From contig OZ020524.1 of assembly GCA_963971425.1 (NCBI GenBank), positions 21,939,022 through 22,003,021 of the forward strand: a stretch of 64,000 nucleotides of DNA. The letters are read 5' to 3'. Below are positions 28,420 to 64,000 of the stretch, one piece after another. The translations under genes and the position numbers were made by a program. The DNA comes from Bryoerythrophyllum caledonicum. Its lineage: Eukaryota; Streptophyta; Bryopsida; Pottiales; Pottiaceae. Every line of letters begins with the position of its first letter. Position 1 is the first letter of the stretch. The notes beneath the pieces were generated by a model. The model ran no database searches, was not told the origin of the DNA, and worked only from the letters and a program-made list of their open reading frames with translations.

Positions 28420-29045
28420 GTGTATTTTTTGTTTTTGCGGTACCAAGAGACATTTTTCTTACAATGCTTCATCTTTTAGCGTTTAATGTATTTTCCCATT
28501 TTCGTATTACATTATGGATACTAAAAGGACATTTCTTGGGTTCATTCCAGACTTTGGAGAGGATGAGGACTGAGTAGAGCTCCGAGTTTTGTGGTGAGGG
28601 GAGTGGAGGGACTTAGTCTCAGAAACCAAACATTCGAACAGTAACAGGTGGGTGGAGTTGCTGTGGAGCCCTCGTTTGTGGTGGAGCTGAGGCTAGTCTG
28701 GATGTTTGCAAGAGCTGCGTGAGAGATTGGAGAAGTTGGAGAGGGCTCTTACCGAGATCTGTGTTGATCGTTCACAAAGAGTGATAGATGTACTAGATCT
28801 GAGGTGGTAAGGTGCTGAAAGCGGGGATACCAACGTTGGAACTCAGATCTAAGCTTGCAGCTATACCTCTAAGTGGCGTAATCCTCCCAGATCTGATCTC
28901 CGCAGTCTAGATCTGCATATTTCTAGCAGTCGCTCTACCTCCCCAACCCACACAAGCAACACTCAACATTGAAGACCCACATCCCACACACAAGATAGAG
29001 CTGCCCTACGATAGCTGCGTCACTCACGCCTCAACAACAACACCA
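28420..29045. other. Gap: 3' flank of the RING gene and start of the LINE
   Basis: 28420-28560 is AT-rich 3' flank. From about 28560 the sequence becomes GA-rich then CA-rich, probably the 5' untranslated region of the large LINE. The exact 5' boundary cannot be fixed because I found no target duplication matching the 3' flank. Confidence 0.35.
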
Positions 29046-32000
29046 GTGATAAGCATTTCTCTCCCTTCCATTGTTTGCACCAGATTCATTTACTTTCCTT
29101 GCACATTATCCATTTGCTCTCATTTGCAATCACTCATAAGAAACACCTTGCTTAGTGGATCCCTTAGACAACACAACACATACAATAGATGCACAGTATA
29201 TCGTACTAGATTAAAAAAATTTGCAGAATTACATTGTGTGCGGAAGCGCTGCCAAAAATACTGCAGATCTACACAGATCACACAACTTCGCGTGCATCTA
29301 CTCGGGATCTGCACCAACATTGAAAGCCCACTCATCAGCAGCAGCAACGATACAAGATCTGGAGAAAGGCAGCGACAGGAGAACAACAGACAAACAACAA
29401 CGCTACAACAGCAAACACCACACAAGCAAGCAAGATCAAAAGCAAGGACACAGAACGAGGTAAGCACTCTCACAGATCCATCATTTCCGTTTGCAAATCC
29501 CCCTTCCTTACTCTCCCCCTCTTCTCCCAATCCTATTGATCTCACCCCCCCCTCCCGCTATCCTATCCCTTCCCCCTCCCCCTCCCTCTTCTCCTCCCCC
29601 CCTCTCAACTCCCTCACAGCCCGTACTCCTCCCTGGCTTATTAAAATCCGCACCAGACTCACAGCTCCTCCCTGCCTCGGAGACCCCAGACCTTCCCCCC
29701 ATCCCGCAAGCACTCAATCAACCAGTAGCATCACTCCCCCTCCCTCCCCTAGAAAAATCTGTAGTTCTCTCCTCCCCACGAACCCTAAAAAATACGCCCC
29801 TACCAAAACCCCTCTCCCACCTCGACACAGAAACAGCTCACCCTCCCTAGTAACACCCCGAACCAACAACGCTCACTACCCCAGTCTGACCCATACATAC
29901 ACACAAACAGATAGGATAAATTTCCCGAAGACTAAACCAAGAAACCTCCCACAGTCACACGCTGAGAAAGGACACCCTGCAGAACCTGAGTTCCGTGAGA
30001 AAAAATACCTCCCGCCGGCAGAATCTACGCGCCGACTCCCCCTGCTCCGATCCCGTCTCCCCCTGCTCCAATCCCGTCTCCCCCTGCTCCGATCCTGTAG
30101 ACAGAACCCCCACAACACAAACCGAACCCTGCGAAAAAAAATAGGACGCTCACCCTCCCAAAAACTACACCCGCACCGCCCCCCCCTGCTCAAAACCCGT
30201 AGACAGAACCCCCACAGCAGAAGTTCAACCCTAGGAATAGAAACAGGACACCCTCCCTCCCCGAAACTAAACCCGCGCCGATCCCCGCTGCTCCAAACCC
30301 GTAGACAGAACCTTCACAGCACAAACTCAACATTGCGAACAGAAACAGGACGCCCCCCACTCCTGAAACTAAATCATGTGTCCCCGATCTCATCCACCCT
30401 CTCAGTCGCTGCGTCTCTGCTATCACCTACCCTCTCCCTCCAGACAGACACTCAAATCCCCCTGCTCCCCTTCATCACCCTCCTTTCACAAGCTACGCCC
30501 ACTCCCTCCCCTTTCCCGACCTCACCTCCTCCAGCCGCTCCTAAGCAACTCACTGCACCTCCCCCACCTGATTCCCCCTCCCCACCCTCACTCTACCCTC
30601 GACCAACCCCACTATCTCCCTCAACCTCTCCCCCGCACTCACAGAATAACCCTCAACCACTCTCACCCTTCCCTGACCTCCCCCCTTCGCCCACAGCCTG
30701 GAGCATAGAGCCGTTAACTGTAGAGCCCACCCAAACACCCCCCAGCGACCCCCGAATCTCTTCTAGTAACCCTCCTACAGGAAATAACGACCTCCCCAGT
30801 AGAAATAGCGACCCCTTAATTCGCCCCAGCGACCCACCTAACTCCCATAACGACCTTCCCTCCCTCAAGCGAGAACCCCCTACCACCCACAGAGACTTCA
30901 CTCCCTCACACAAAGACCTCCCCACATACCATAGTGACCTCCCCCCTTCCCATAACTCTGTCCTAGACAAATTTATGACGGGTAACACCAAGAAAAACTC
31001 CAGCGCCCACATGGAGATAGAGGCCATGGAGGACAACTCTACAACGACCCCAACCGCGAAAACAACAAGAAGGATGGACAAGGAAGGAGGGAGCAGCAAG
31101 AAAAGCAAGATATCTCCGAGACAAGAAGGTAAGATAATCTCCACACCAGAATTATGTTCTTTCAAATTTTGGATGGGCTTCCAAGCTATGGAAGCAATTG
31201 CAATTGAAGAGGGAGCTGAACCTCTATTTAGCGGAGAAACGGTGGAAGACATGATTACTAGAGGGCTAAAACCGGAGGAGGCCAAGGAGGTAAGCATTGC
31301 AAGGGTAGCATTTCCTCGAATTCCACAAGTGCTATACCCTATGTCAAGGAAAGGGGTGGTTGGACAACACTACAACCTTACCCAAATTCCTTTCGACATT
31401 CCCACGAACGAAAGCTCTGGTATGTCACTAGACTTTCATGTTGGAATTCACTTCGAAATCCCACAAACACCTATTATGCATGATGAGGTAAAGGAAATGG
31501 TCAATGCAAGATTAAAGATAATGAACATTTCTCTTGGCAAACAACTAATTGACCCTATAGCTATCCAATGTCTAAGCATCAAACAAGGGAAGATTAAGGG
31601 AGTGTGGGCGGGTAGCATTAAGTTACATTTGCTCAAACCCGAAGTTGATGGGTTGATGTTACTAAAAGGCATTAGACCCTTTATTCTCAAAATTGAGGGA
31701 GAACTAGTCGTTGGTAAGGTTTGCAAGGCCTACCAAGGCATTTCTAAGGGTACTAACCTCTCCGTGAAGGTCAAAAGTGGTGCATTGAAGGATATCACAG
31801 CCCAAGCTCTCTTCAAGGAAGTGCTCGAAGATAGTTTTCGCCGTGGCTTCGAATTCGAGCTTACGGGAGTACAAAAGAAATATGAGGACTCCCATGCCTT
31901 CCTTATTACTACTACTCCCAAGCAAGTGAAGAAAATCCTCCTCCATCAAGCAACCGCACAACATGAAGTATTGGAAACAAGACAAGTGCTCGAAGTCAAT

Positions 32001-32606
32001 GGGCCAAAAGGTAAACTCGAAACCAAAGCTAAAAAAGATGCACTAACCTTAACCTTATCTCCCCTCCCCATTCACTTGGATGTCGTGCACACCACCCATG
32101 AAATTTACAAAGTCATGGGTGGAGCAAATGTCCGCTCTATATGGTTCCACAAGGATAATGGCACTAGCCATAATGGCAATGCCAATATTGTATGCGCTAA
32201 CCCCATTGTGTATAGGACCTTTGTGGGGAAAACTCATATCATTGGAGGTAACTATGTGGATTTTGCACCCCACCGACGTAGCTTGGAAGGTGACACCCCT
32301 CCCACCATGGAAGAAATCAAATCCTTTGGATTTGATGACATCAACACGGCCATTGTCAACACCATGACCACCTTCCAAACACAAGACAAGACCAACAATG
32401 TGACCAAGGAAGAACTAGTGGCAATATTGGAAGAAAATAACAAGAAAATTCGAGAGGAGAACAAAGAATACGCCGATATGAAGAGTGAGGAGTTGAAGAA
32501 ACAAATGGCAAGCGTGCAAGACTCCATGAAGGCCGCCCTTGCCACACTACAAGCCATGGCAAGCACTATGTCCACCCCAATGCTTGAAGATGGAAGGCCA
32601 AACTAG
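29046..32606 (+). CDS. LINE ORF1 (nucleic-acid-binding protein)
   Basis: Open for 1186 codons. The first 640 or so are Pro/Ser/Thr-rich and low-complexity, with two families of internal repeats (three units of about 34 residues containing RRQNPHS...PPLLKT, and eight-residue units like NSHNDLPS). The conserved body begins near MEIEAMEDNSTTT (31011). It includes SFKFWMGFQAMEAIAIEEG, then a segment resembling the RRM-like fold of other LINE ORF1 proteins (GNANIVCANPIVYRTFVGKT), and a C-terminal coiled coil (EELVAILEENNKKIREENKE). ORF1 proteins of this kind bind the element RNA as trimers or oligomers; that role is inferred. The start is uncertain: the first true ATG could be near 30975 or 31011, with the Pro-rich part as leader, although 1.9 kb without a stop argues for translation. 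Confidence 0.7.
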   Translation: MISISLPSIVCTRFIYFPCTLSICSHLQSLIRNTLLSGSLRQHNTYNRCTVYRTRLKKFAELHCVRKRCQKYCRSTQITQLRVHLLGICTNIESPLISSSNDTRSGERQRQENNRQTTTLQQQTPHKQARSKARTQNEVSTLTDPSFPFANPPSLLSPSSPNPIDLTPPSRYPIPSPSPSLFSSPPLNSLTARTPPWLIKIRTRLTAPPCLGDPRPSPHPASTQSTSSITPPPSPRKICSSLLPTNPKKYAPTKTPLPPRHRNSSPSLVTPRTNNAHYPSLTHTYTQTDRINFPKTKPRNLPQSHAEKGHPAEPEFREKKYLPPAESTRRLPLLRSRLPLLQSRLPLLRSCRQNPHNTNRTLRKKIGRSPSQKLHPHRPPLLKTRRQNPHSRSSTLGIETGHPPSPKLNPRRSPLLQTRRQNLHSTNSTLRTETGRPPLLKLNHVSPISSTLSVAASLLSPTLSLQTDTQIPLLPFITLLSQATPTPSPFPTSPPPAAPKQLTAPPPPDSPSPPSLYPRPTPLSPSTSPPHSQNNPQPLSPFPDLPPSPTAWSIEPLTVEPTQTPPSDPRISSSNPPTGNNDLPSRNSDPLIRPSDPPNSHNDLPSLKREPPTTHRDFTPSHKDLPTYHSDLPPSHNSVLDKFMTGNTKKNSSAHMEIEAMEDNSTTTPTAKTTRRMDKEGGSSKKSKISPRQEGKIISTPELCSFKFWMGFQAMEAIAIEEGAEPLFSGETVEDMITRGLKPEEAKEVSIARVAFPRIPQVLYPMSRKGVVGQHYNLTQIPFDIPTNESSGMSLDFHVGIHFEIPQTPIMHDEVKEMVNARLKIMNISLGKQLIDPIAIQCLSIKQGKIKGVWAGSIKLHLLKPEVDGLMLLKGIRPFILKIEGELVVGKVCKAYQGISKGTNLSVKVKSGALKDITAQALFKEVLEDSFRRGFEFELTGVQKKYEDSHAFLITTTPKQVKKILLHQATAQHEVLETRQVLEVNGPKGKLETKAKKDALTLTLSPLPIHLDVVHTTHEIYKVMGGANVRSIWFHKDNGTSHNGNANIVCANPIVYRTFVGKTHIIGGNYVDFAPHRRSLEGDTPPTMEEIKSFGFDDINTAIVNTMTTFQTQDKTNNVTKEELVAILEENNKKIREENKEYADMKSEELKKQMASVQDSMKAALATLQAMASTMSTPMLEDGRPN
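30046..30380 (+). repeat. Nested tandem repeats in the ORF1 leader
   Basis: Three copies of a 21-bp unit TCCCCCTGCTCCGATCCCGT at 30046-30100, followed by about three copies of a roughly 102-bp unit containing CCCGTAGACAGAACCCCCAC. All lengths are multiples of three, so the reading frame is preserved. Confidence 0.75.
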
Positions 32607-32662
32607 TTAGGAACAAAGACTACATACCACTACATAGAAACCGTATAGTAAATACCCATAGT

Positions 32663-34882
32663 ATGCGACGTATAGTATTTGAGCAATACTCCAAAAAAAT
32701 AGTAATATGCAAGTATACCAATACAAAATACAAAATACATATCTACTATACAAAAAACAATCATTGTATTCAATACCACATTCAATACAAATACTATATT
32801 GAATACCTCAAAAACTATACTCAATACTATACAAAAAACTACTATACCCCATATAGTACGACAAACATAAGAAAACATCGTAAATCATACAAAAAAATTA
32901 AGTTAACACAAAAATATGGTACAAATACGGATACAAATACAAGTACATACGCCGCTACATATATTAGCACAAAAACTGATACATACGCTGATATGCGTAT
33001 TCATACAGAGACTGGTATGGATACGTATAATTGTACGTACAGTAATACCGAAACATATACTGATAACAATAATAATACAAACTTGAAAAAAAGAAATACA
33101 AATACTAATAGAAATACTGGTACAAATACTGGACCAAATACTAATACGAATAGTGGCACAAATACCAAGATAAATATTAAGGCACATACTAACACAAATG
33201 TATGTGTGAATACTAATATAAAAACAAACATAACTACATACACAAAAAGAACCACACACCGTAAAAAAAACATACACACATGCAAAGACGAAGACATACA
33301 ATCAAATAAACAACAAATAAAATATCAAAGACACACACAAAAACAAAAAATCCTAAAACAAGATAAGAAACCCACATACTACAAAATACTAACACAAAGT
33401 ATGAACACTAACATAAAATCAAACACAACTACATATACACACATATATGCAAAAACAACCACACACCATCAAGAAAACACATACATACAACCGAATAAAC
33501 AAAAAATAAAAAACCTAAGCCACATACAAAAAACTCTCAAACAAAACAAAAAACCCAAAACAGTAGTACTAAATATGAATACCAATATATATAGAACTTA
33601 CATGAAATACATATGGAAAACAATGATTAGAAATGATTCAAAACAAATAAATACTAAGAAGAATTTTAAAAAACAAAGAAAAACTACAAGAGAAGATATA
33701 ACTAAGAAAGGAAATAAAATAAAACTAAAGAAAGGAAATAAAACAAAGAAAGTTAATAAAACAAAAATAAGAAAAGGTAATAAAATAAAAACAAACCATA
33801 AAAATAAAAATAAAAATAAAAATAAAAATGAAAAGGGTAAATTTAATCAAAGGAATAGACTAAATAAACAAACAAAAAACGAAAATATCAAAACCAAAAT
33901 AAAAAATATAAGGAATAAGAGAAGAGATGGAATTAGAATAAATAATAAAAGGAAAGAGAAAATAAGTATCACAACTACATATAAAAAAAAAGGAAACAAT
34001 AATAATGAAAACAATAATGGAAATTTTGTAATAAAGATAAATAAGGATAGAAGGGATGCTAAATCCAAAAATCATCAAAAGACAAGGAATATTAAAATGG
34101 CTATAAATAGGAAAATCAAGGAGAGTAAAAAGAGATATAATAAATTAAATAGGAAGAAGATAGATATTTATAAAATTTCAAAGGTTTCAATTAGAGCAAG
34201 TAATATTAAAAATAAAATAACAAAAATGAAGAGGATTTGTAAGAAGAAAATAAAGAGTAAAGTAGAAAACCATGATCATAAGAAAACAAATAATAAGAAC
34301 ATAACAATAAACAGTAGTACTAAAAATAGAATATGCTTCTTAAGAAATTCCAAAATAAGGGATGGAAAATTAACCAAAATAGTAACGAGAAACAATTATC
34401 ACAAGAATCTAGATATTAAGAATATAGCAACAAACAACAAAGGTAAAAATAGAATATGCTTCCTAAGGAAATCCAAAATAGGGGATGGAAAATTAACAAA
34501 ATTAGTAATGAGAATTAATTATACAAATACGAAGAACGTAGGTATAAACAGCTGTACTAAAAATAGAAGATTATTCCAAAGAAATTCAAATATAAGGGTG
34601 GGAAAATTCACCAAATTAGTAATGGGAATTTATTATAATAAGAATACAAATAAGAAGAACATAGCTATAAACAGCAGTACTAAAAATAGAATATGCATCT
34701 TAAGAAATTCGAAAACCTGGGATGGGAAATTAACCAAACTTGTAATGAGAAATAAAATTTTTAGAGTAAAAATAAATAGAAAAGGTAGTAATAATAAAAT
34801 AGTAAAGACCAAAAATACAAATTGGGAAATATATTACAGGGATAAAAGGAAAGTTAATAGTAATATTAAAATTGATACATAA
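32663..34882 (+). CDS. Middle ORF of the LINE: Lys/Asn/Thr-rich protein
   Basis: 739 codons with no stop although the DNA is about 80% A+T. The adjoining frames are dense with TAA because of words such as AATAAA, so the openness looks selected. Three zones: an N-terminal Tyr/Lys-rich part (YTKNNHCIQYHIQYKYYIEY); a zone of TNTNT repeats encoded by a degenerate AATACN hexamer; and a very basic C-terminal half (KKGNKIKLKKGNKTKKVNK). That half holds four related units of about 60 residues containing NRICFLRNSKIRDGKLTKIV. Two phrases (QKQKILKQDKKPTYYK, QKTLKQNKKPK) match the segments that precede the 2A motifs in ORF2 but lack 2A itself. Charge suggests RNA binding. No known family. It could be an extended ORF2 N terminus, separated by about 150 bp with stops. 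Confidence 0.5.
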   Translation: MRRIVFEQYSKKIVICKYTNTKYKIHIYYTKNNHCIQYHIQYKYYIEYLKNYTQYYTKNYYTPYSTTNIRKHRKSYKKIKLTQKYGTNTDTNTSTYAATYISTKTDTYADMRIHTETGMDTYNCTYSNTETYTDNNNNTNLKKRNTNTNRNTGTNTGPNTNTNSGTNTKINIKAHTNTNVCVNTNIKTNITTYTKRTTHRKKNIHTCKDEDIQSNKQQIKYQRHTQKQKILKQDKKPTYYKILTQSMNTNIKSNTTTYTHIYAKTTTHHQENTYIQPNKQKIKNLSHIQKTLKQNKKPKTVVLNMNTNIYRTYMKYIWKTMIRNDSKQINTKKNFKKQRKTTREDITKKGNKIKLKKGNKTKKVNKTKIRKGNKIKTNHKNKNKNKNKNEKGKFNQRNRLNKQTKNENIKTKIKNIRNKRRDGIRINNKRKEKISITTTYKKKGNNNNENNNGNFVIKINKDRRDAKSKNHQKTRNIKMAINRKIKESKKRYNKLNRKKIDIYKISKVSIRASNIKNKITKMKRICKKKIKSKVENHDHKKTNNKNITINSSTKNRICFLRNSKIRDGKLTKIVTRNNYHKNLDIKNIATNNKGKNRICFLRKSKIGDGKLTKLVMRINYTNTKNVGINSCTKNRRLFQRNSNIRVGKFTKLVMGIYYNKNTNKKNIAINSSTKNRICILRNSKTWDGKLTKLVMRNKIFRVKINRKGSNNKIVKTKNTNWEIYYRDKRKVNSNIKIDT

Positions 34883-35035
34883 AAAGGAAGGGGGGATTAA
34901 TGTTTCGCCGGCTGGTCGTGCGCCGGAGGCGCCAAAAATAGAATTACTAAAATAGAAATTCTAATAATAGTAAGAATATATACGAATCTGATTGAAATAA
35001 ATATCAATATATTTTTTCCGTATACTGGTACGTAT

Positions 35036-38000
35036 ATGTATAAATATCTGTATAATGGTACGTATACAGATACGTATACTGTTGTGTATACTAATACAAA
35101 TACTGATACTTACACTAATACAAATACTAATATCAATATTGGTACGTATACTAGCACAAATTATAACACGAATACTAACAAGGATACTGATACAAACACC
35201 GAGACAAAAACCGAGGCATATACTAATACGAACATACGAATAAATACTAATATAAAAACAAATATAAAAACATATACACACACAAAGACAACAACACACC
35301 GTCAATGTAATACATACAGAGAAGAACGCCGGTCTCCAAAGAAGGCCGGCGGGAATCATAACACATACATATACATACACACACACAAAAACAAATACAT
35401 ACAATTAAAAAAAAAACACGCAAGTCACATTCAAAAACAAAAAATTCTAAAACAAAACAAAAAACCCATCTACTACAAACTTCTAATATTAATTGGAGGA
35501 GATATGGAGACTAACCCAAGACCCATGCCGAACATATTAAAAAGACACCCCACTTTGCACAAAAAGAATGCCAAAACATATTTCATACCAAATACTAATA
35601 CAAACACCAAAACAAACAATTGTACAAACCACAAAGTATATAATAACACCGCATATGAAAAAAAGGACTTAAAAACCATTTTAAAACCCAACATAAACCC
35701 ACATACAAATAGTCTTAAACATAATAGCTACATATACACACGGACAAAAACAACCAAGATAAAATACAACCAATCATACATACATCCATACACCACTAAA
35801 ACAAAAACAACCACAAAAAACACATGGACAAAAAATAAACTAAAGACAAAAACAACTACACCTACTATAAAAATAAATAAACCCACAACTCACACACAAA
35901 ATACAAACATCCACCTACCCCCAAACCAACAAGCCATTAATAACACAATAAAGCCTTTAAAATACACCACTAAACATATATACCACAAACTTCTACTACT
36001 TCTAGGAGGAGACATTGAAACCAACCCGGGACCCATGCCCAATATATTAAAAAGACACCCTACATCACATAAGAAAAATGCCAAAATCTACTTTATACCT
36101 AATACCATAAAACTCCAACCAGAATATGAACACATTGCAAAACCCTTCGCACCATTTCTAAAAAACTCACACACATTACACCACATACACAACACTTCCC
36201 ACCCAAACATTGCCCAATACATACAACAAAAAAATATGCATCCACCACCCCACATCTTATATGCACTAATAATCACCACTCATCCAAGCATAGATGAATG
36301 TAACCAACTTCTAAATCCACAAAATTTAAACACAATTACATGGACTAATACACTCCTACAAACCTTACTAACCTTACAAAACCCACCAGAACGACACATT
36401 TACACTCCACACCCCTATACTGAATTCCTAGTAGACAACCAAAATATTATAAACCATGAGTACTCAATACATAGAAGACTATACGACTTCTTACATAGTC
36501 AAGACATACCACCCTCAAATGATATAATAAAACTAAAATTCCCTTACCTCCCTAACAACCTCATAAATGAATCACTAAAATGCCTAGACCCTATACCAGA
36601 ATACACCCACCCACCTCCACCTCTTCCCTACATTCCTCCTCAAAATCAAAACATTAGACCAAACCAAGTAAATACATACATAATCACATGGAATGCCTCC
36701 TCACTAAACACTGCCCTTCCTAGCTTACAAACTCTAGTCGCAAACACAGACACACCACCGGCCCTCATAGTTATACAAGAAACAAAACTAACCGCCACAA
36801 AATCTACAAAATATATACAAAATATATTTCAAAACTATAAACTCATCTTTAACAACACACACGCACTTACAAGATGCATGCAACAAAGGAGACCATACAC
36901 ACCGGGCCGCGGTGGCCTCCTTACATTAATACACAAAAAATATACATTCCCCGGCAACATCAACAAAATCCCTACCCCAATGCACATATCACCATACATT
37001 CAAATAATTAAAATCACTAATCACCCACTACAACCGTGGTTAATCTTTCACATGTATATGCCATCCCATCCCGAAGATACTAGATTTCTCTTAGATATAC
37101 AAAACACTATTACAAACCATATTAATAATCATCCCAATCATACATACCTATTATGTGGAGACTTCAATAGAGACATAGCGCCAATTGGCCGCCAAAATGG
37201 AAACCACCACACCCCCCCTCAAAACATTGATTACCAATGGCGCCGCTTCACAGAAAACTTAAACTTCACTTACATCAATACCGATACACAATTCTCTAGA
37301 CAAGGTGGCTACAATTATAGTGATTGGAGTCTAATAGATGGTTTCTATATAAATACAAACAACAACACACAATACACCGCCACAACAAACAAAGATATTA
37401 TTCTCAATTCGGACCACTCACCCGTACAACTGCACATCCCAAATAACACACTAATTAGTAGAACTCCTACAATCCCAAACAAAGACACTATACGCATACT
37501 AAACCCCATCCCAAAAACCAACATAGAAAAATTCAACACAAAATTCTTCGAAGAAAACTCCGTACAAATAGACTCCCTCATAAACACTCTTGAAAACAAT
37601 AGTCAATTAACACAAGCACAATGGCAAGAAGCATGCCACTCTCTAGACAAACTCATCAATAAAATCTCTGATACACTAGAACAAACTTGTAGAGCACATC
37701 CAATACCCCAAATGACAAATAGAACCTCTCAACAAGGCGGGTATCTACCCCGCAAACTTTCTAAAATTTGGAAACAACACTTAACCGCATACCATACCAT
37801 ACGTAAAACCATTAGAATTGTAAAAAACAACCCTCAATGGCGTAACCACCCCATACACAACGAACTACTAACTATACAACACATCCAAATCCCTACCCCG
37901 CCGCCTCCGGACCTTCCCCACGATACATGGATAAATGATATCGCGATAATTGCAAAAAATGCCAACATACAAGCCCGGAAAATAATCACAAAATACACAA

Positions 38001-41000
38001 AAGAAAACATTAAAAAAGCCATCTCAAAATACAGACAACTATACGAAATTAGCCCCAAAAAAATTAACAAAAAAGTCTTTAAAAACCTTGAATCCCCACC
38101 AATGGATTGTATCAAAGATCAATATAATAATATTCTAACTAGCCCCGAAGACATTGCGAATGAAATATTTAACCAACAAACAAAAACCAATAGACCAACA
38201 GTACTAACATGTAATTACCAGCCACAACATACAATAGAATGCACATGTGCAATACGCCAATACCCTTGGCACGACTTGGACGGATATACCCTTGACAAAC
38301 GGGGCGAACCAGAAATTCCACTTCATAAATACCTCAACAGAGCCACATACGACACATGCCTTCAAAATCTTGGAAATAATAAAGCCCCAGGCCCAGACCG
38401 CATACCAAACTCAATACTAAAAAACATGCCTCCAAGATTTCACAAGCTATTATTTCTGTTCTTCTCCCACTGCTATAAACAAAAACAGATACCAAACTCA
38501 TGGAAATTAAGTACAACAATCCTACTATACAAAAAAAGCGACCCGTCCATACTACCCAACCATAGACCATTGCACTAGCTAACACAATATACAAACTCTT
38601 TACCAGTACACTCACCTCCATACTATCCTCATACGGCGAAAAATTCAAAATCCTACATGATAGTCAAGAAGGATTTAGAGCAGAGAGAAGTACCGCACGA
38701 CAAATACAAACTATAATAGCCGCACTAGAAGACGCAAAATTTACTAACCAAGATATATACATACTACACGTGGACTTCAAAAATGCCTTTGGCTCAATTG
38801 ACCATGCCCGACTTCTAGCAATAATGATGGACCTTGGTTACCCAAAAGATGCAACTACACTTGTTGGAAACATCTATTCTAAATCATCTACATGTTATAC
38901 CGGTGAACACTTTGGGAAAACAAAACCTATACCCATCCAAAGAGGAACTATACAAGGGGATACCCTCAGCCCATACCTATTCATTATATTTCTAGAACCA
39001 CTACTCAGATGGCTAGAAAGAGGAAATTACGGATACACTTTTGGCACATCACAGGTCATAATAAACTCTGCCGCATACGCGGATGACCTAGCCACCATAA
39101 CTAACAAAATCAAATCAATCCAAATACAACTAAACAAAATTGATAGATATTATAAATGGGCCGGTATGGACGTAGGTGTCCCAAAATGTGCCGCTACCGG
39201 TTGCCCGAACAAATCCAAATTGAATCCTACCACTTTCAAAGCCCTAATGCAAGCCTCTAACATCAATTACCGCAATCAACCGATCCCCATACTACACCAA
39301 AATGAACAATACATATACTTAGGCACAAACCTTGTTCCCTCACTAAAATGGAAAATCCAAATACATACCACAACGACAAAACTCATCAAACAATGCAAAG
39401 AACTAACAACAAGCCCAACTACCATGAAACAAAAAATAAAAATGGTTGATACCGTACTACGCCCAGGGGTAGCATACAGTTTCTACGGTGTACCATACTC
39501 TATGCCAGCTATCAAAAAACTTGATAAAAAAATAATAACCATACAAAAAACCATATGTGGATTACCAAAATGTATGTCAAACGCAATAACCCAACTACCA
39601 CATAACCTATTTGGACTTGAAGCTTTCTCCCTCAAAAACGCATACCTCCGATGTATAGGCGAACAACTGCAAAATGCTCTAAACGATAAAGGAAGACTTG
39701 GGAAAATATATAATGGATTAACTCACTATGTCCTTGCCCAATATGGTGGCGCTGAAAACATACCGAGAATTAAAAAAAGTGACTGCATAAGATCACCAAT
39801 AACACGAACATTCTTCTTATTAAAACATATAGCTAAAGCCCACCTTAAAAGTACGCTCCCGAACTTCCTCACTAATCCTACAACAATAGAAATACTATGG
39901 CGCCAAGAAACATTAAATCATAACACACTCAATGCCCAACTCTCCCAAAAGCTTCTACAAAAACTCCTCTCAAAAAATATTTTTGAACTAAACCAAATTA
40001 CCTTACCTAACGGTACACACATCATGAACAATGAGGACTTCAAAACCTACCACTTCACCCCATCTAAACTAATAAAGAGTGCCCTAAGTGTTGCTAAACA
40101 ACTATTTTGCCACATAACATGCCCCACTATATGTCATACTCCTTGCAACATACACCCATACTCTCATACACTTAAAGATCCATTCATCACCCTCAACAAT
40201 AACATCATCCCAAGAAATATTCCCACACCAACCAATCCCCTTAACCCTCCACATACATACCACCCCCGCCCCCCAACATACATCCCCAAAAACCCTACCA
40301 CATATCCCATTAATAATATCATAAACCATAAACATATCCAACACACAGACACAAATAACATACAAAATACCTACACAAAATATCTATGCCAATGGCAACA
40401 CAATGATAATACATACAATAAATGGCTCCCCCAAAGAGACCTTTTTCCACGGCATGACACTAATACATCCACACATAACACTGAAAAATTAAAACAATAC
40501 TACCAAAAGATCCAAAACAAAATATACTCAGATATCATCCTTGCCCACCATCCACAAGAACAATCCTCAGACTCAAGGTCCGTAACGCCACCCATAATTA
40601 TCCCACTTTTAAACATCTACACAACAGAATGCAACCCCGAAAATGATATCCTTACATCCTCAAACACAATTCAAATAGATAACAATCAAGCACATCTATA
40701 CGAAGAAAACGGCCGACATTTACACACCATACCCATTACCCGGCTCCAATGGTTATGGAACCAATATCATACAAAATTACAAACCCCTACAAACATTGAA
40801 CCAACAACCCAACCCTTTGAAACCGAACTAATATGGCTTTACCAAAGATATAAATATCGAATACCAAAAACTGACCCCCTCAAAAATGCGCAATACACAA
40901 TACCCACCCCCATTTTAGACTCACTAATATCATCCTTTAACATCGAACACTCATACTTTTCCTCTCCGATTACATGTCCTACCAAACTAAATAAATTCTA

Positions 41001-43056
41001 CTCACCGTACGAAAGAGACAAAATATTTGGATCCCTAGGCAAGGCCTTTGAACACAAATGGATCGGAAATGGAATAGCTCACCCCCACAACGAGAAAGAC
41101 ATAGAACAAGCCATACATTGGGCTAGACTTGCCGCCAAACACGATCCAAATAACACAAAAACAATCATCGTCACACCGAACAACAATTGGTACCAAATCA
41201 ACAACCAACATTCAAACCCATTCCCAGATTCCCACATCATTGCATTATTCGAAGCAGACACAATACCATACGAAGAACCTAATATCCCACCCGAGCTAAA
41301 AAAACCCCGAATAGAGCCATCTACATTACAAATACTATGCGTCCATCATCAAAATCAAAACCTGGGCTCCCTAGAACAACTTGCGGAACTTACCTCCATA
41401 ACAGACAATCTAAACATACAACGACCATACACAAAACCGGCCCCACCAACACCCATACAAACCCCCGTAAACAAAAGTAAAAAATGGTCAAAATTAAACT
41501 ATGACAACAACACATTAAACTACTCCGTCATACCTCCCCCTCTCCCAGACTACCCAACTCATACGACACCAAAATTTAACCCCGCATACAGTTATTACAC
41601 CGACGGCTCCTTTAAACCACCGGAACAAATTAGCCCGGGCTCTTGGCGAAGAGAAAAAACTGGCTATGGCATATATAATTCTACCAAAGAAATTAAACTA
41701 GCCAAAAGACTCCATGGACTACAAAATATCCTGAGAGCAGAACTCATGGCCATTCACAAAACGCTACAAATCATTACAACAAAATACAAAAATGAACCTG
41801 CACATATATTCACCGATTGTATAAATGCACTATACCTACTAAACACTCAAATAACACACCCAACCCTTCACAACAGTCACCCCGACCAAACCATACTAAC
41901 ATCAATGGTACAAATGTTACAAAAACGTACACAAATCACAACCCTTCACAAAGTCAGAGCCCATGCCAACATTGATGGCAACGAACAAGCAGACAAACTT
42001 GCAAAAGAAGGCCGAGAAAAAACACACAAAAACGCCAAAGATCCTCACGAACATGCTCATGCCACCCCATACTACTTTCAAAAAGAAGATTGGCCTTCCA
42101 AAGAAGATACTCCTGACAAAGGCCCAATTAGATTTCTGGGCAAATATCTCAAAAAACAAGACCTCTACAACAACCTGGATACAATCTCAGAAAATATTCC
42201 TAACATAGAAAAATGGACTAACAATAACGACATAGACAATGAACTCTCTACAAACTTTTGGAAAAACCCCATCATCTCAGACTCACAAATAACGTGCCTC
42301 ATCAAATTCCGTACGGGTCAGTACATGGGAAACGCTCGCAAACAACTCTTCTTTGGAATAGAAAGATTCCCATCCATAACATGCCCCATATGCCCCTCAA
42401 CGGACCCCGACACATGGCTTCATGTGCTACTCAAATGCCAAAACCACCACATACACTCTCTAATCGTTAAAAGACATAACAAAGCGGTATGGGAAGTCCG
42501 AAAACTAATCACCTCCTACAACAAATCGAGATGTTTCATACTTATGAACGCCGGCACTTTTAATAGCAATCCACAAGAAAACACGGTCCCCCCATGGCTA
42601 CTTCCATGCTCATGTATGACCCAAAGATGTCATTGCAACGCTAGGCTCAAACCGGACATTCTTTGTGTCAAAGGTTTACCATACAACGACCCACCACCCG
42701 AGAACATCAACCAAGACTACACCATTCAATTCATCGAATTTACATATTGCAACGATAGATTCTCCCCGGAAACAATACAAAACAAAATAGATAAATACCA
42801 ACCCCTCATAGACGACATCATTGCCCTCGGTTGGAATGTAGACCCCCTTATTGTTATCACATCCGGCGCTCGTGCCACCACCTTTATCCCATCTATGAAA
42901 ACTCTCGAAGATACCTTCAAGATACCCATTGATACAATTAAAACTACCTTTAAAAATATCAATACCATCGCTATTCAACATGCCATGTCTATTTTACTGC
43001 ATAAACGCAAAATCGAAAACAACCAAGTCCTCCCCGATAGGCAAGACCCCCCTTAG
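35036..43056 (+). CDS. LINE ORF2: 2A motifs, APE, RT, RNase H, CCHC, PD...E endonuclease
   Basis: Starts at ATG 35036. Residues 1-330 are Asn/Thr/Lys-rich and include two 2A-like motifs (35498 and 36008). The APE domain is at about 36670-37440 (ITWNASSLNT, VIQETKL, LCGDFNRD, LNSDHSPV). The RT is at about 38340-39300 (LGNNKAPGPDRIPNSIL, HVDFKNAFGSIDH, GTIQGDTLSPYLF, AYADDL at 39073). RNase H is at about 41590-42010 (YYTDGSF, RAELMAI, IFTDCINAL, VRAHANIDGNEQAD). A CCHC finger CPICPSTDPDTWLHVLLKC (C-x2-C-x9-H-x4-C) is followed by LKPDILC...IQFIEFTYC...NKIDKYQPL, the layout of restriction-like endonucleases of R2-type elements. One frameshift (one base missing near 38571, between HRP and ALANTIYKL) splits the RT; otherwise the frame is open. 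The stop is TAG at 43054-43056. Confidence 0.9.
35321..35351 (+). repeat. Inverted piece of the LINE 3' hairpin inside ORF2
   Basis: GAAGAACGCCGG followed by GGCCGGCG: the first 12 bases are the exact complement of the element's own 3' terminus (CCGGCGTTCTTC), and the stem reforms. In frame it reads REERRSPKKAGG, out of character with the surrounding TNTNT repeat. Confidence 0.55.
35498..35524 (+). other. Degenerate 2A-like motif 1 in ORF2
   Basis: Encodes GDMETNPRP (residues 155-163) after YYKLLILIG. It fits the 2A consensus D-x-E-x-N-P-G-P except that the essential Gly is Arg, so ribosome skipping is not expected here. It is followed by MPNILKRHPTLHKKNAK, the same sequence that follows motif 2, so the two are copies of one duplicated module. 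Confidence 0.75.
36008..36034 (+). other. 2A-like ribosome-skipping motif 2 in ORF2
   Basis: Encodes GDIETNPGP (residues 325-333) preceded by HKLLLLLG. It matches the 2A consensus D(V/I)ExNPGP exactly, with the hydrophobic run that normally precedes it. In known 2A sequences the ribosome fails to form the Gly-Pro bond and releases the upstream product. Here this would separate the roughly 332-residue Asn/Thr-rich leader from the APE-RT-RNase H-endonuclease polyprotein, about 210 residues before the APE domain. Confidence 0.85.
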
Positions 43057-43268
43057 GAACTTCGCCACTCTATCTCTTCCTGATTGGCTGCCTGTTTGGT
43101 TTTGCTTTTTGTTGTTTAGTTAGTTTGGTCGTGGTTGGTCGTTGTTGATTGGTTTCTGGCTACTCGTTACATAGTGTCTACCCTCGAAAGGGGGAAGTAG
43201 TTCCAGTTCGCTAATTCCTTGTCCGGTGGGCATGGTCTTAGCAATGGAACGAACAGACACTTTATTCA

Positions 43269-43306
43269 CGCCGGTTACCTTCGGGTACCGGCGTTCTTCT
43301 TCTTCT
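43269..43306 (+). other. 3'-terminal hairpin and TTC tail of the LINE
   Basis: CGCCGGTTACC, loop TTCG, GGTACCGGCG (10-bp GC-rich stem with one bulged T and a UUCG tetraloop), followed at once by TTCTTCTTCTTCT. Copy 2 ends the same way with different loop bases (59250-59287, minus). LINE reverse transcriptases commonly recognise a 3'-terminal stem-loop, so this is the likely RT recognition site. The 43057-43268 stretch is the rest of the 3' untranslated region. Confidence 0.8.
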
Positions 43307-55751: not shown

Positions 55752-57835
55752 TCAGGCGGAGCTGCCACGGTGTCCGGGAATAGGAGCGCAGTGCGCGGGA
55801 GCAACGTCGGGTTCAAATTGGAACCGCGGATCTGGTTGATGCACCCACGGAGGCGGGATGGCTTCCGGGACGTCCCGGGGATTGCCACTTCCAGACTTCT
55901 TTGCTCGTCGCTTGCTTAGCCGCAACGCCATGTTCCGTTTGCAGATGGGTGGGACGTTTCCAAGGAAGGGCGCAATGTAGTCCGTTGGGGTGCGCAGGGG
56001 AGGATTCTTGACGAGTTCCCGGAGCCTCGTGCCTGCGCTTCGAATCGCCTCTGTACTCCAACGAGCCCTGAATTCCTTGCATGCTTGTTTGTCTGCTTCG
56101 TATTGCACCTTCTCGAGCTCCTTTCTTGCCCTCTCCGCTTGCTTTTCCACCTTCCGTTTCTCAGCTTCTTCCCTTCGCCTCTCTGCCTCTTTCCGCGCAG
56201 CGTTGCGGCGGTCCGCCTTCTTCTGCATGGCCGCTATGTACTCTTCAGACGTGAGGAGCAACGATCGAGAGTAGTCGATCAAAGGATCTCCACCTTGCCG
56301 CGCGGGCACCTGGACCGGAATTTTTGGTAGCTCCAGTAGCGAGGACACATTCGGCCCTGTCGCCACAGCTTCCACCGTTGTCTACATGAAGGTCGGCATC
56401 AACTGCGAGCTGGTCATCAGCGTCGTCCTCTTCGTCGCCGGGAAGAGGCACAAAGAAATGTTGGCGATGCTCCTGGGAGTCTACGATCACGTCGCCCTTG
56501 ATCTCTTCTAACGCCATGTCTGAGCGAGGAGATTCAGGCTCCGATTCAGTGTCTGTAGACACCTGCGACTCCACTCCATCAGAGTGCACACTGCCGTTGG
56601 GAGACATGGCTGCGAGGGCCGCATCTGCAGACTGCGCCCTGCCCTGTGCTATCTGAAATGGCTGCGACAGCCCTATATGGAGATCCATAGGGTGGGGATT
56701 CAAGGGATAGATGCTAGTGGTGCGGAAGCCAGAGGTTATATTCCTGTGTGTAAGTGCCCTCTCTAGTGCCTTTGAGACCCACATTGCTAAGACTTTTTTG
56801 CAAGCAGGCCTTCTTCTATTTCTTAGTGTCCACGCATCTCTGTATCTTTTAAAATATCTTTTGAAAGGACCAAATACACTAACATCTAGAGGCTGTAATC
56901 TGTGGCTTGTGTGGCTAGGTAGGGTGAGGAGATCAAGACCCACGTGTTTGCACTTCTGAACCACCTGCAAGGTCACGTGCGAGTTGTGACTATCGACAAT
57001 CAGTAAGTGGCGCCTCTCTTGCGAGATTCCACCGTTGTTGCTTAGAGATGTAATGAAATGTGAGATCCAATGAGAGAACGATGTTGTAGTCATCCACGCT
57101 TGTTCTTGCATTGCCATCACCGCCCCATCTTCACAGTGAGCTACATAGTTGTCCCTTACTCTTTTTCCACGAAAGATGTAGAAACCAGGGATGCACTCTC
57201 CTGCTGCATTTATGCACATCAGATTTGTAAGCCACTCCCTCTCGTTAGGCATGACCTTGTGCACAGATCTAATGCCTTTTTTTGCCCAAACTAGCCCTTC
57301 ACCGTTTCTGCCCGCTTGAGCATCTGTTTCGTCACAATTCCAGATCCAATCTGGAGGGTATTTTTCTTTCTCATAGAGGGAAGATAGGTTACTATAGAAT
57401 GAGTTGATGTTCTCTGCACATAAACCCTTAGCTCTTGCAAATTCTAGACCCTCTGATAGACGTAGGGAGAGATTTGGGTGACGTTTTTTAAACCACTTGA
57501 GCCATCCATTCCCGGGAATGCCATCACGGAACGGGGTGACTCTCTCTTGTGTCATTTCTGCTACTTTTAAACGAAGTTGATCCATGCTCAGAGGAAATCC
57601 ATACTCTTGCATTTTCAATATATATTCCTCTAATGCAATTTCCTCACTCTTGGTTAACACTATTGGTGGACCCTTTTTCCTTGACAGAACTCTCCCTTGC
57701 AAATGATCTGCAATTTAGCTACAGGGTATGTCGAAATTTCTAGACACTGCTTTCAGTTTCTCTCCTCTCTCTACTGCACGAATGGCAGCCTTCATTTGTG
57801 CATCAGTCCATTGTCCCACTTTTTTTTTTCCGATC
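55752..57835 (-). pseudogene. Pogo transposase, one stop and one frameshift
   Basis: The N-terminal Psq-type helix-turn-helix (GQWTDAQMKAAIRAVERGEK, then LKAVSRNFDIPCS) is interrupted by a TAA before IADHLQGRVLSRKKG. A CENP-B-type helix-turn-helix follows (IALEEYILKMQEYGFPLS ... GNGWLKWFKKRHPNLSLR). The catalytic DDD core, numbered from the Met at 57702, is WNCDETD (Asp124), LLIVDSHNSHV (Asp237) and HRLQPLDVSVFGPFKRYF (Asp273). After an acidic linker the frame shifts near 56385, and the C-terminal coiled coil continues (LLLTSEEYIAAMQKKADRR, KEAERRREEAEKRKVEKQ) to 55752. The coiled-coil tail is a usual feature of this family in early plants. All three catalytic residues are kept. Confidence 0.88.
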
Positions 57836-59249: not shown

Positions 59250-59287
59250 AGAAGAAGAAGAAGAACGCCGGCCAGGATGGACCGGCG
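59250..59287 (-). other. 3'-terminal hairpin and tail of LINE copy 2
   Basis: On the minus strand CGCCGGTCC...GGCCGGCG followed by TTCTTCTTCTTCTTCT. The outer six base pairs equal those of copy 1 while loop and inner stem differ, as expected for a conserved RNA structure. Confidence 0.75.
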
Positions 59288-59520
59288 TGAATAAAGTGTA
59301 TGTTCGCCCCACCACTAAGACCATGCCCACCAGGCAAGGAATTAGTAGCATGGGGCTACTTCCCCTTCTCGAGGGTAGACACTATGTAACAAGTAACCAT
59401 AGGGATAAAAACCAAAACAAGGAAAGCTACAATCATAGCAAGGAAGTGGGGAGAAAAGGAAAGGAAAAAGGGAAAGAAGAGTAAAGACAATGAAGGGGGA
59501 TGAAGGAGGGGGAATGGGCG

Positions 59521-59786
59521 TGGACAGGACATCCCCCACGCTCGGACTTACCCGAGGTGGGCCCCCGTCATAATTGTATGGGCTCATTTTTCTGGCCCTC
59601 CCATTTTGGGGGGATCATAGGCTTTTTTAAAACAAAATTGGGGCCTACGGCTCCTATTTAGTCTATGGGTCCCCCATTGGCTAAATTTAGGGCCCCATTC
59701 AAAAACAAAATAGGGGCCAGGTTTTCGCCCTACCACCTCGTCTCCCACCCGGTAAGTCCGAGCGTGGAGGGTGTCTTGTCAAATCA
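59521..59786. mobile_element. MITE inside the 3' region of LINE copy 2
   Basis: Inverted ends GACAGGACATCCCCCACGCT / complement of AGCGTGGAGGGTGTCTTGTC, extending about 33 bp. It is flanked by the direct repeat GGGGGAATG (59508-59516 and 59787-59795, with four further near-matching bases). A 9-bp duplication is typical of Mutator-like elements. The interior shares TCATTTTTCTGGCCCTC, TTAGGGCCCCATTC and AAAATAGGGGCCAGGTTTT with the element at 16346-16586. It is younger than the LINE copy it sits in. Confidence 0.75.
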
Positions 59787-59823
59787 GGGGGAATGAGCGG
59801 GGCGGTGGGAGAGTGAGGGTGTT

Positions 59824-62800
59824 TTATGGAGTGTCATGTGGATCGGAGAGGGTTTGGTTATTCTCAATTTTTTGTTTATGTAATAATATGGACATAGCAT
59901 GTTGGATTGCGATGGTGTTAATATTAGTGAAGGTATGTTTAATTGTGTTCATGGGTATTTTGAAGGTTTCTTCAAGGGTGTTCATGGGTGGGATATATGT
60001 TGTGGCGCGGGCACCAGCCGTGATGACTATGAGGGGGTTGATTTTCCATCCGAGTTTTCTAATGTCGTCTATGAGGGGTTGATATTTGTTCATTTTGTTT
60101 TCAATTGTTTTTGGTGAGAATCTGTCGTTACAATACATGAATTCGATGAATTGAATGGTATAGTTTGGATCAATGTGGATGGGTGGCAGGTCGTTGTATG
60201 GTAGGCCTTTTACGCAGAGTATGTCCGGTTTGAATCTAGCATTACAGTGACATTGTTGAGTTGCACATGTACATGGGAGTAGCCAAGGTGGGACCGTATT
60301 CTCTTGTCGGTTGTTATTGAAATTGCCGGCATTCATGAGTATGAAACATCGGGATTTGTTGTGTGAGGTGATTAGTTTTTGGATTTCCCATACTGCTTTG
60401 TTGTGTCTTTTAACGATGAGGGAGTGTATGTGGTGGTTTTGGCATTTGAGTAGAACGTGTAGCCATGTGTCGGGGTCTGTAGAGGTATATATGGGGCATG
60501 TTATGGATGGAAAGCGTTCTATTTCGAAGAAGAGATGTTTACGGGCATTTCCAATATATTGACCAGTGCGGAATTTAATAAGGCATGTAATTTGTGAGTC
60601 GGTAATGATGGGATTTTTCCAGAAATTTGTAGATAGTTCATTGTCTATGTTGTTGTTGCTTGTCCATTTTTCTATGTTAGGGAAATTTTCGGAGATTGTG
60701 TCAATGTCATTGTATGTGTCTTGTTTTTTGAGATATTTTTCTAAAAATTGGACCGGGCCTTTGTCCGGGGTGTCATCTTTGGAGGGCCAATCCTCTTTTT
60801 GGAAGTAGTATGGGGTGGCATGTGCATGCTCATGTGGGTCTTTGGCATTTTTACGTGATTTTTCTCTTCCTTCTTTGGCTAGGTTATCGGCTTTTTCATT
60901 TTCTTCTATATTAGTGTGGGCTCTAACTTTATGGAGTGTAGTAGGTTGTGTTTGATTTTGAAGCATTTGTACCATGGACATGAGTGTTATTTTGTTGGGG
61001 TGGCTATTGTGGAGAGTAGGGTGTGTTATTTGTGTGTTTAGTAGATATAGGACATTGATGCAATCCGTAAAAATATGTCCGGGTTCGTTGACATATTTTG
61101 TGTTGATGATTTGGAGTGTTTTGTGTATGGCCATCATCTCTGCTATGAGGATGTTTTGGAGTCCGTGGAGTCTTTTGGCTAATTTAATTTCTTTGTTGGG
61201 ATTGTATATGCCATATCCGGCTTTTTCTCTATGCCAGTGTCCAGGGCTACTTTCTACCGGTTCTTTGAAGGATCCATCCGTGTAGTAACTATGTATGGGG
61301 TCATATTTTGGGTGAGTATTTGTGTGGTAATTAGGGAGGGGGGGTTGTTATGGAGTAGTTTAATGTGTTGTTATTGTATTCTAGTTTAGACCATTTTTTG
61401 CTACGGTTTACTAGTGTTTGAGGAGGTGTGGGCGGGGCAGTATTTGTGTGTAGCCGGTTTATGTTTAGAGATTTGGCTATGGATGTGAGCGTGGCTAGTT
61501 GTTCTGAGGTTCCCATTGTTTTACTTTGGTGATGGACACATAGTATTTGTAGAGTAGGTGGTTCAATGCCAAGGCTTTTTTTGTTTGGTTGGGATAGTGG
61601 GTTCTTCGTATGTTATTGAGTCCGCTTCGAATAGTGCTATGATGTGTGAGTCTGGAAAAGGGCCTCAGTGTGGATTAAAGTTTTGGTACCAATTTTTGTC
61701 TGGTGTAATGATGAGGGTGGAGGTGTGGTTTGGGTCATGTTTGGCTACGAGGCGGGCCCAATGTAATGCTTGTTGTGTTTCTTCTTCATTGTGAGGGTGA
61801 GCTATGCCAATGCCTATCCATTTGTAGTCAAAGGCTTTTCCTAGTGATCCAAATATTTTATCTCTTTCAAAGGGGGAGTAAAATTTGTTAAGTTTGATGG
61901 GGCATGTGACGGGGGAGGAGAAGTATGAGTGTTGGATGTTGAATGTTGAAATTAATGAGTTTAGTATCAGTGAAGGTAGTGTATATTGTGTAAGTTTAAG
62001 GGGGTTATTTTTTGGTATTTTATATTTGTATCATTGGTATAGCCAAATGATTTCGGTTTCAAATGGTTGGGTTATTGGTTCGCTGTTTGTAGGGTTTTGT
62101 AGTTGAGTGTTGTATTGGTTCCATAACCATGTGAACCTATTGATGGGGATGGTAAAGAGGTGTCGTCCATCTTCTTCGTATAGGTGTGCTTGGTATTTGT
62201 CTATTTTAATTGTGTTAGATGAGGTAAGAATGTCTTTTTTGGGGTTACATTCCATCGTATAAATGTTTCGTAGGGGAATTATTATGGGTGCGGTGACGGA
62301 CCTTGTGTCTTGGGGTTGATTTTGTGGGTGGTGAGCTTGGATAATTTCGGAGTAGTTTATGTTGAATTCTTTGATGATATTGTGTCAAATGATTGATATT
62401 GTGTGTAATGGTGTTTTGGTTGTGTCTTGGGAAGAGGTTTCTTTGGGGGAGCCATTTGTTGTAGGTGTTGTTATTGTGGTCCCATTGGCATAAATATCTC
62501 ATGTATTTGTTTTCAATTTGGTTATTGTCTATTTTTTCTTTATGTTGGTGGTGTATGATGATGTCTATGGGGTATGTGGTGGGATTTTTGAGGATGTAAT
62601 TTGGGAGCCGGGGGTGGTGTGGGTGGGAGTGGGGAGGATGTATCGGTGGTGTGAGGGTGTTTCTTGGGGTGATGTCATTGTTTACAGTGATGAATGGATT
62701 TTTAAGTGTATGGGAGTATGTATTTGTGTTGTTATTAGCATGTGGGGGGGTGTATTGGGTGGCAAAAGAGTTGTCTTGCTATTTTGAGGGCACTTTTAAT

Positions 62801-64000
62801 TAGTTTTGATGGGGTGAAGTGGTAGGTTTTAAACTCTTCATTGTTCATGACGTGTGTTCCATTAGGTAGGGAGATTTGTTTTAGTTCGTAGATGTTTTTT
62901 GATAGGAGTTTTTGTAATAACTTTTGAGATAATTGTGTGTTGAGTGTATTATGGTATTGTGTTTCGAGAGTTCAAGCTTTTTCTAGTGTTGTTGGTTCTA
63001 TATGAAAGTTGGAGAGATTACTTTTTAAGTGGACTTTTGCTACGTGTTTTAGTAAGAAGAAGGTGTGTGTTATTGGTGATCTTGTACAATTCGTCTTTTT
63101 TATTCTAGGTATGTTTTTGGCCCCCCCATATTGGGCAAGGATGTGGTGTGTTAAGGCCCTATATATTGTTCCAAGTTTTCCATTGTCATTTAAAGCGTTC
63201 TGTAGTTGTTCTCCTATGCATCTAAGGTATGCAATTTTTAGAGAAAAAGCTTCTAGTCCAAAGAGGTTGTGCGGTAATTGGGTTATTATATTAGACATAC
63301 ATTTTGGCATGCCGCATACGGTTTTTTGTGTGGCCGTTATCTTTTGGTCTAGTTTTTTGATGGCAGACATTGAGTATGGTATCGCGTAGAAGCTGTATGC
63401 CACGCCCGGTCTTAGAACTGTGTCAATCATTTTTATTTTTTGTTTCATGGTGGCCGGGCAAGCTACTAGTTCTTTACATTGTTTAATTAGTTTTGAGTGG
63501 TGGCATGTATTTGGGTTTTCCATTTTAGGGAGGGGACGAGATTTATTCCTAAATATGTGTATGGTTCGTTTTGGTGTAATACAGGTATTGGTTGGTTTCG
63601 GTAATTAATGTTAGAGGTTTGTATTAGGGCTTTGAATGCGGTGGGATTTGTTTTTGATTTATTTGGGCATCCAGTGACGACACATTTTGGGACACCTACA
63701 TTCATTCCTGTCCATTTGCAGTATTTGTCTATTTTGTTAAGTTGTATTTTTATAGCTTTGATTGTGTTGGTTATGGCCGCGAGGTCATCTGCGTATGCCG
63801 TGGAGTTGATGGTGGTTTGTGATTTGCCAAATGTGTATCCGTTGTTGCCTTTGTCTAGCCATCTAAGTAGTGGTTCTAGGAATATGATGAATAGATATGG
63901 GCTTAGAGTATCTCCTTGTATTGTTCCCCTTTGGATGGCTATGGGTTTAGTTTTTCCAAAGTGTTCTCCTATGTATGAGGTTGAGGATTCCGAGTATATA
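59824..64000 (-). pseudogene. ORF2 of LINE copy 2, broken, 5' part outside window
   Basis: Contiguous pieces in the order RT (63990-63490), connector (CKELVACPATMKQKIKMIDT, 63523-62972), linker (62502-62031, 61516-61331), RNase H (around 61280-60900), CCHC finger (CPIYTSTDPDTWLHVLLKC, where the second Cys has become Tyr), and the C-terminal endonuclease-like domain (FKPDILCVKGLPYND, YTIQFIEFMYCNDRF, ARATTYIPPMNTL) to a TAA stop at 59824. The last 437 codons (from 61137) are uninterrupted. Conservation of the PD...E positions in both copies supports their importance. Confidence 0.8.

Follow-up and report, generated by a model that had tools for sequence, protein, structure and literature searches.

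A stretch of 64,000 nucleotides from the moss Bryoerythrophyllum caledonicum, referred to here as the window, probably harbours a LINE with a working StopGo/2A site that would free a leader from the endonuclease-reverse transcriptase protein, together with a duplicated and now broken copy of that site. The intact motif lies in one open frame with the LINE endonuclease and is conserved in related proteins, and the module that carries it has been duplicated in tandem, with coding constraint on both copies.

Architecture of the element

The plus strand from about 28.9 to 43.3 kb of the window looks like a single LINE. Its parts, and those of a second copy, are given below; P0002 and P0003 are the two proteins predicted from ORF2.

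28911-32606, + strand: long open frame, likely ORF1 of the LINE (stop-to-stop ORF, 1231 aa)
32588-34882, + strand: upstream leader frame, rich in Lys, Asn and Thr, in phase with the 2A frame (stop at 34880-34882)
34901-36034, + strand: ORF2 leader, ending with the intact 2A site (its first ATG lies at 35036)
35320-35352, + strand: GC-rich hairpin within the leader (folding z -4.29, 0 of 200 shuffles as stable)
35426-35599, + strand: module 1 with the broken 2A, GDMETNPRP at 35498-35524 (profile score 59.2 bits, P0002 residues 176-233)
35939-36148, + strand: module 2 with the intact 2A, GDIETNPGP at 36008-36034 and then MPNILKRHPTSHKKNAKIYFIPNT (profile score 100.4 bits, P0002 residues 347-416)
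36683-37204, + strand: endonuclease domain Exo_endo_phos, PF03372 (E 4.3e-06, P0002 residues 595-768)
38566-38578, + strand: frame change splitting ORF2 inside the reverse transcriptase (P0002 ends NHRPLH-stop at 38578)
38569-39324, + strand: reverse transcriptase RVT_1, PF00078 (E 2.3e-23, P0003 residues 2-253)
40780-41184, + strand: PCIF1_WW domain, PF12237 (E 2.9e-10, P0003 residues 739-873)
41587-42015, + strand: RNase H, PF00075 (E 2.9e-12, P0003 residues 1008-1150)
43157-43306, + strand: 3' UTR and 3' end, bearing a terminal hairpin and a tail of TTC repeats (83% over 150 nt to the second copy at 59399-59253)
59253-63969, - strand: second LINE copy, from the reverse transcriptase to the 3' end, in several frames (77% identity across 4140 nt and the shared 3' UTR; RNase H present)

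The endonuclease stands upstream of the reverse transcriptase, both scoring above the Pfam cut-off, as in an APE-type LINE. The frame at 28911-32606 matched no Pfam family at or above the cut-off and was assigned to the LINE, as its likely first frame, from its position; judged by eye, it has a Pro-rich front, an RNA-binding-like middle and a coiled-coil-like end. The 3' end with its tail is common to both copies in the window, of which the second, on the minus strand, runs off the window end before the position of the 2A site would be reached. The present copy is dead and would give no full protein, because ORF2 changes frame at 38566-38578 (P0003 resumes it in another frame from 38566 with IALANTIYKL) and the leader carries in-phase stops at 34880-34882 and 34898-34900.

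The 3'-terminal hairpin stretch folds with a z of -2.49 in the main copy and of -1.13, which is not notable, in the second. The leader hairpin at 35320-35352 has 14 exact nucleotides antisense to 43287-43300 in that 3'-terminal hairpin, a weak match (E 0.01-0.03), and it is possibly in part an antisense piece of the LINE 3' end, as if inserted backwards. Elsewhere in the window a transposase ORF with HTH_Tnp_Tc5 and DDE_1 matches lies at 56245-57714 on the minus strand, and Rfam and tRNA scans of all 64 kb gave no matches.

The preliminary description, made from the sequence alone, had called the element a plant-lineage LINE, and this agrees both with its endonuclease, reverse transcriptase and RNase H domains and with its neighbourhood, judged on one host gene of land-plant type. 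This gene encodes a plastid pyruvate kinase, with exons from 46981 to about 50280 (joined by eye into one gene). Among the best 120 of 7985 matches, its best-scoring counterparts are those of Ceratodon purpureus (93%), then Physcomitrium patens (88%) and Sphagnum (78%), besides an environmental protein with 95% over 89% of the query. Judged on this gene, the host is probably a moss from the Ceratodon/Physcomitrium side. Contamination by protist or animal DNA is not favoured, since this one host gene on the same sequence is moss-like.

The PCIF1_WW domain sits between the reverse transcriptase and RNase H. The domain profile matches 68 of the 152 relatives searched, P0005, P0006, P0013, P0018 and P0055 among them, and many matches of a search with the reverse transcriptase half (P0003) combine a reverse transcriptase with PCIF1_WW and RNase H, as here; among the 120 listed for that search, the named hosts are Haematococcus lacustris, Pleodorina starrii and one Agrobacterium-labelled MAG. 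PF12237 is the family of the cap-adenosine methyltransferase PCIF1/CAPAM, in which NPPF is the motif to be expected at the corresponding position. Placed by eye, this position reads NPEY in P0018, P0055 and P0117, VPPF in P0013 and AHPH in the window, so that catalysis by the domain is doubtful. A search for NPPF-like motifs found no match among 60 of the 79 PCIF1_WW domain rows, and a literature search on PCIF1 together with retrotransposons or reverse transcriptase returned nothing relevant by title.

The 2A motif and its conservation

The motifs that had been read in the preliminary description are all present in the translation: positions 36008-36034 read GDIETNPGP and, at an offset of exactly 510 nt and in the same frame, positions 35498-35524 read GDMETNPRP. 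Each is followed by MPNILKRHP (at 36035 and 35525) and preceded by a Leu-rich run, HKLLLLLGG before the intact and KLLILIGG before the broken motif, and the near-identity of the two modules takes the form of a 148-nt repeat with 77% identity (35448-35595 and 35958-36105). Both motifs lie in a single frame, open from 34901 to 38578, which runs into the LINE endonuclease. The StopGo core has been published as (D/G/C/N)(V/I)ExNPGP, with LLLLSG as one upstream class and a Gly preceding the Asp (PMC12846837). The intact site, DIETNPGP, fits this core, and the LLLLGG before its Asp is, by eye, near the LLLLSG class. The front motif, DMETNPRP, fails it: the Gly before the last Pro, which is completely conserved and essential in 2A (PMC5972666), is Arg here.

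A 2A-type DNA pattern has one match in the 64-kb window and none in any of 100 dinucleotide shuffles; these shuffles, together with the conservation in relatives, rule out a chance motif. An ORF at 4065-4403 on the plus strand, starting STLYSVNGVATNPGPL, contains NGVATNPGPL, in which the NPGP has no acidic residue before it and is probably due to chance.

A protein search with P0002 residues 345-900, a query that included the motif itself and thus carries a small ascertainment bias, gave 35 matches, of which nine (P0008, P0010, P0134, P0141, P0142, P0143, P0144, P0147 and P0153) begin downstream of the site. The remaining 26 are predicted proteins of other elements, and not full-length copies from the same genome or sequences assigned to mosses. 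Other full-length copies lacking the motif had been named beforehand as what would speak against a 2A; among these predicted proteins, NPGP is found in 25 of the 26 relatives reaching the site, even where identity to the window piece is as low as 35%, the exception being P0148 with NPDP. The site adjoining the endonuclease reads DIExNPGP in 16 of these 25, DIHxNPGP in three and DIQxNPGP in six, so that the strict form is held by 16/26. The His variant at p14 is active at about 90% or more, and Gln at this position is absent from the permitted variants named in section 9 of the same source (PMC12846837). The relatives' upstream stretch (e.g., LLQCG or LLLSG) is Leu-rich and Gly-ending, like the LLLLSG class.

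Searching with the reverse transcriptase half (P0003) gave 157 matches, and among the 120 listed NPGP occurs only in P0070 and P0118, a figure that refers to all listed proteins, whether or not they reach the site. P0118 is a Haematococcus lacustris protein with GDVEANPGP (WLLLACGDVEANPGP). Since the listed matches mostly have no NPGP, including the long P0018 and P0024 (both of 2450 residues and matching an endonuclease), the 2A is kept in one subgroup and seen in one further green-alga protein, and is not a feature of the whole PCIF1-bearing family. DNA of close relatives was found neither in bacterial or archaeal genome contigs (single query, P0128) nor in viral contigs (single query, P0002).

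Duplication of the module

The preliminary description had proposed a duplicated module of which one copy has degenerated. The duplication stands: in a midpoint-rooted module tree the two modules of the window are sisters, with a support of 0.936. The notion of a plain degenerate copy fared less well, as selection has acted on it at the protein level. Across 33 codons (35501-35599, set beside the corresponding codons 510 nt downstream) there are 15 synonymous and five amino-acid codon differences, and the base differences fall 1/3/19 on codon positions 1/2/3, i.e., 19 of the 23 are at third positions. The NG86 method gave a dN of 0.073 over these 33 codons, where dS is saturated and thus not computable, and a dN of 0.097 with a dS of 2.6 over 40 codons. 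If the front module had evolved neutrally, 13.8, 19.1 or 28.6 changes would be predicted at positions 1 and 2 under three assumed divergences, and only four are seen (P 9e-4, 4e-6 and 1e-11, assuming equal rates and a single substitution model, F81). The concentration of the differences in third positions shows that both modules were retained as protein during much of the time since the duplication, and the Gly-to-Arg change in the front module probably came late.

It is therefore unlikely that the front module is just a pseudogene fragment left by an old duplication, without function ever since. Its essential Gly is lost, Met stands in place of Ile, and downstream of the shared stretch the modules stop resembling each other, with all of the last eight codons compared being different, as would suit such a piece; against it stand the preponderance of third-position differences and the rejection of a neutral copy under each of the three assumed divergences, within the equal-rate, one-model frame of that test. 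Partial copies of the stretch before module 1, without the 2A motif, are also found further upstream, at 33315-33392 (79% to 35409-35486) and, more weakly, at 33463-33540 (60% to the 33315 copy).

The tandem layout also occurs in distant relatives, two of which have NPGP in both modules. With a profile built from 23 rows, module 2 of the window being one of them, and a threshold of at least 8 bits for each module, two modules were scored in the window, P0135, P0136 and P0154, i.e., in 4 of the 27 site-reaching sequences (window included). The modules are 170 aa apart in the window. P0135 has DVEPNPGP and then DIHPNPGP, 140 residues apart, and P0136 has DIHPNPGP twice, 159 residues apart, whereas in P0154 the first module is broken (GDMEPNPSP) and an intact motif follows, the modules being 406 aa apart. 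In the module tree the first module of P0136 joins P0150 in another group (support 0.999) and that of P0135 stands beside the P0136/P0150 group; the first module of P0154 has decayed and diverged too far to be placed. The tandem layout has thus probably arisen at least twice, and one ancient shared duplication was rejected, given that the window modules are sisters and the first module of P0136 lies elsewhere with P0150.

In P0154 (about residues 187-430) a worn post-2A region and the start of an endonuclease, ITTWNAPTLNTG, seem by eye to follow on from the decayed front module; whole ORF2 fronts may have been duplicated and then decayed upstream. The leaders of P0133, P0132, P0155, P0156, P0139 and P0154 hold repeated short motifs (an ASAYRPRHK-like one at four places in P0133, an RPTGLA-like one in P0139 and P0154), which perhaps mark decayed tandem blocks.

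Translation of the leader

Upstream of the intact motif the frame reaches back to 34901, and from there to 36007 it has no stop in 369 codons, where about 26 were expected and the minimum in 500 simulations was 12; the other plus-strand frames have 25 and 32 stops. The upstream leader frame at 32588-34879 is likewise free of stops over 764 codons, against about 72 expected and never fewer than 52 in 500 simulations; the other two plus-strand frames have 76 and 107 stops. The expectations are those of a first-order Markov model on the strand's own dinucleotides. This openness is in part a repeat effect: the upstream leader frame is partly built of 12-nt and 237-nt repeats and the stretch 35040-35276 in the ORF2 leader is rich in 12-nt repeats, and these lengths, being multiples of three, keep a frame open without selection. 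Three direct copies of the 237-nt repeat lie at 34156-34752 on the plus strand, two of them with 62% and 77% identity to the reference copy. A stronger sign of translation, within the module that it covers, is the codon pattern, which holds as far as the motif and across it. The frame open from 34901 to 38578, with no stop before the motif, places the intact motif in frame between two predicted translated segments.

A real rival for the start of the catalytic protein is the ATG at 36035 (MPNILKRHP), reached by internal initiation or re-initiation, with everything upstream being 5' untranslated sequence that only looks open, owing to base composition and to repeats in multiples of three. In its favour, NPGP is followed by a Met here and in 17 of 25 motif-bearing relatives. 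P0134 is annotated from exactly this Met, and 12-nt repeats fill part of the leader. The stop-free 369 codons before the motif argue against an untranslated leader, as do the differences between the modules, which track the codon structure through the motif; moreover, the remaining 8 of the 25 relatives have no Met after NPGP, and yet the GDI..NPGP is present. This alternative is unlikely, slightly more so than a pseudogene origin of the front module.

In several relatives (P0135, P0136, P0137, P0145, P0149, P0152 and P0156) the leader starts with a hydrophobic stretch or has one early on, with NK or KE after it, e.g., CSLYLLINK or CYIFLYLYNKE. It is possible that these stretches serve as a membrane anchor or a signal sequence on the released leader.

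Proposed mechanism

Under the preferred reading, that of a working 2A site, ORF2 would be built as leader, 2A and endonuclease/reverse transcriptase/RNase H. With the ribosome at NPG-P (36023-36034), the 2A peptide would act from within the exit tunnel to block the formation of the Gly-Pro bond, the leader would be freed with an end in ...NPG, and the same ribosome would continue, with the catalytic protein starting Pro-Met-Pro. The basic stretch at this start, PMPNILKRHPTSHKKNAK, could, by eye, serve in nuclear targeting. The 2A module, made up of the motif with about 20 residues on its N-terminal and about 25 on its C-terminal side, was duplicated in tandem in this lineage. As the front module was long maintained as protein, its site probably worked earlier and would then have given two products whose basic N-terminal segments were almost the same; with the front Gly now being Arg, only the second site should act here. 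That ribosomes skip, and that the first site was once active, we infer from the sequences and from what is published on 2A, namely that its nascent chain halts elongation and leads to the release of the upstream chain (PMC12846837). Plant ribosomes can be expected to respond, since a LINE-type N-terminal 2A is reported to work in Nicotiana cells (PMC4981915).

The least credible alternative is that the motif is a relic, i.e., a former 2A whose loss of function was tolerated and whose conservation reflects a structural role of the peptide: the Gln at p14 in 6 of 25 relatives, the NPDP of P0148 and the broken front copies of the window and P0154 would suit it, but NPGP persists in nearly all relatives reaching the site, including those as low as 35% in identity, and both sequences with a broken front copy have an intact motif after it.

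Relation to known 2A systems and significance

The arrangement has likenesses among LINEs of other lineages. Odon et al. (2013) reportedly described 2A-bearing APE-type LINEs of animals; there, as here, a 2A-like sequence is encoded by an endonuclease-type LINE, and the present element would differ in its land-plant host, in PCIF1_WW and RNase H within the same ORF and in its tandem modules. L1Tc of Trypanosoma cruzi reportedly has a functional 2A in frame with the LINE enzymes (Heras et al. 2006), in a different host lineage. The PCIF1_WW LINE proteins in many cases share the combination of reverse transcriptase, PCIF1_WW and RNase H and, unlike the present element, mostly have no NPGP among the 120 listed. 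The N-terminal 2A of sea urchins is likewise of LINE type, and it is described as doubling as a signal sequence (PMC4981915), whereas the hydrophobic stretches in some leaders of the relatives here are often far before the 2A. Picornaviruses of the Paavivirinae carry tandem NPGP sites about 50-150 aa apart (PMC11512398), to be set against the 140 and 159 aa of P0135 and P0136; theirs is a viral polyprotein and not a retrotransposon, and some of the sites appear to terminate rather than to skip. Literature searches on 2A in retrotransposons or plants, with narrow word searches over mostly open papers, gave no land-plant LINE case by title or abstract, and no evidence of natural use in plant viruses emerged from a 2026 survey that covered nearly 10,000 StopGo sequences of viruses (PMC12846837).

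The present findings suggest that retrotransposons of the green lineage naturally use the 2A trick, with which animal viruses have a ribosome let go of one protein and begin another. A wider reading, to which we give somewhat less than an even chance, is that green-lineage LINEs, those of land plants included, use natural StopGo with a repeatedly tandem-duplicated 2A cassette, so that one frame would give two or more proteins sharing nearly the same basic N-terminal segment, much like the picornaviruses that carry several 2A sites. If this were true, the loss of the Gly in the front copy would switch the element between a three-product and a two-product layout. The tandem modules would show how 2A cassettes multiply, with duplication and decay being traceable in the sequence. 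A conserved 2A in a moss LINE would mean that this recoding is used naturally within the genome of a land plant, and it would provide a native plant 2A for tests and tools.
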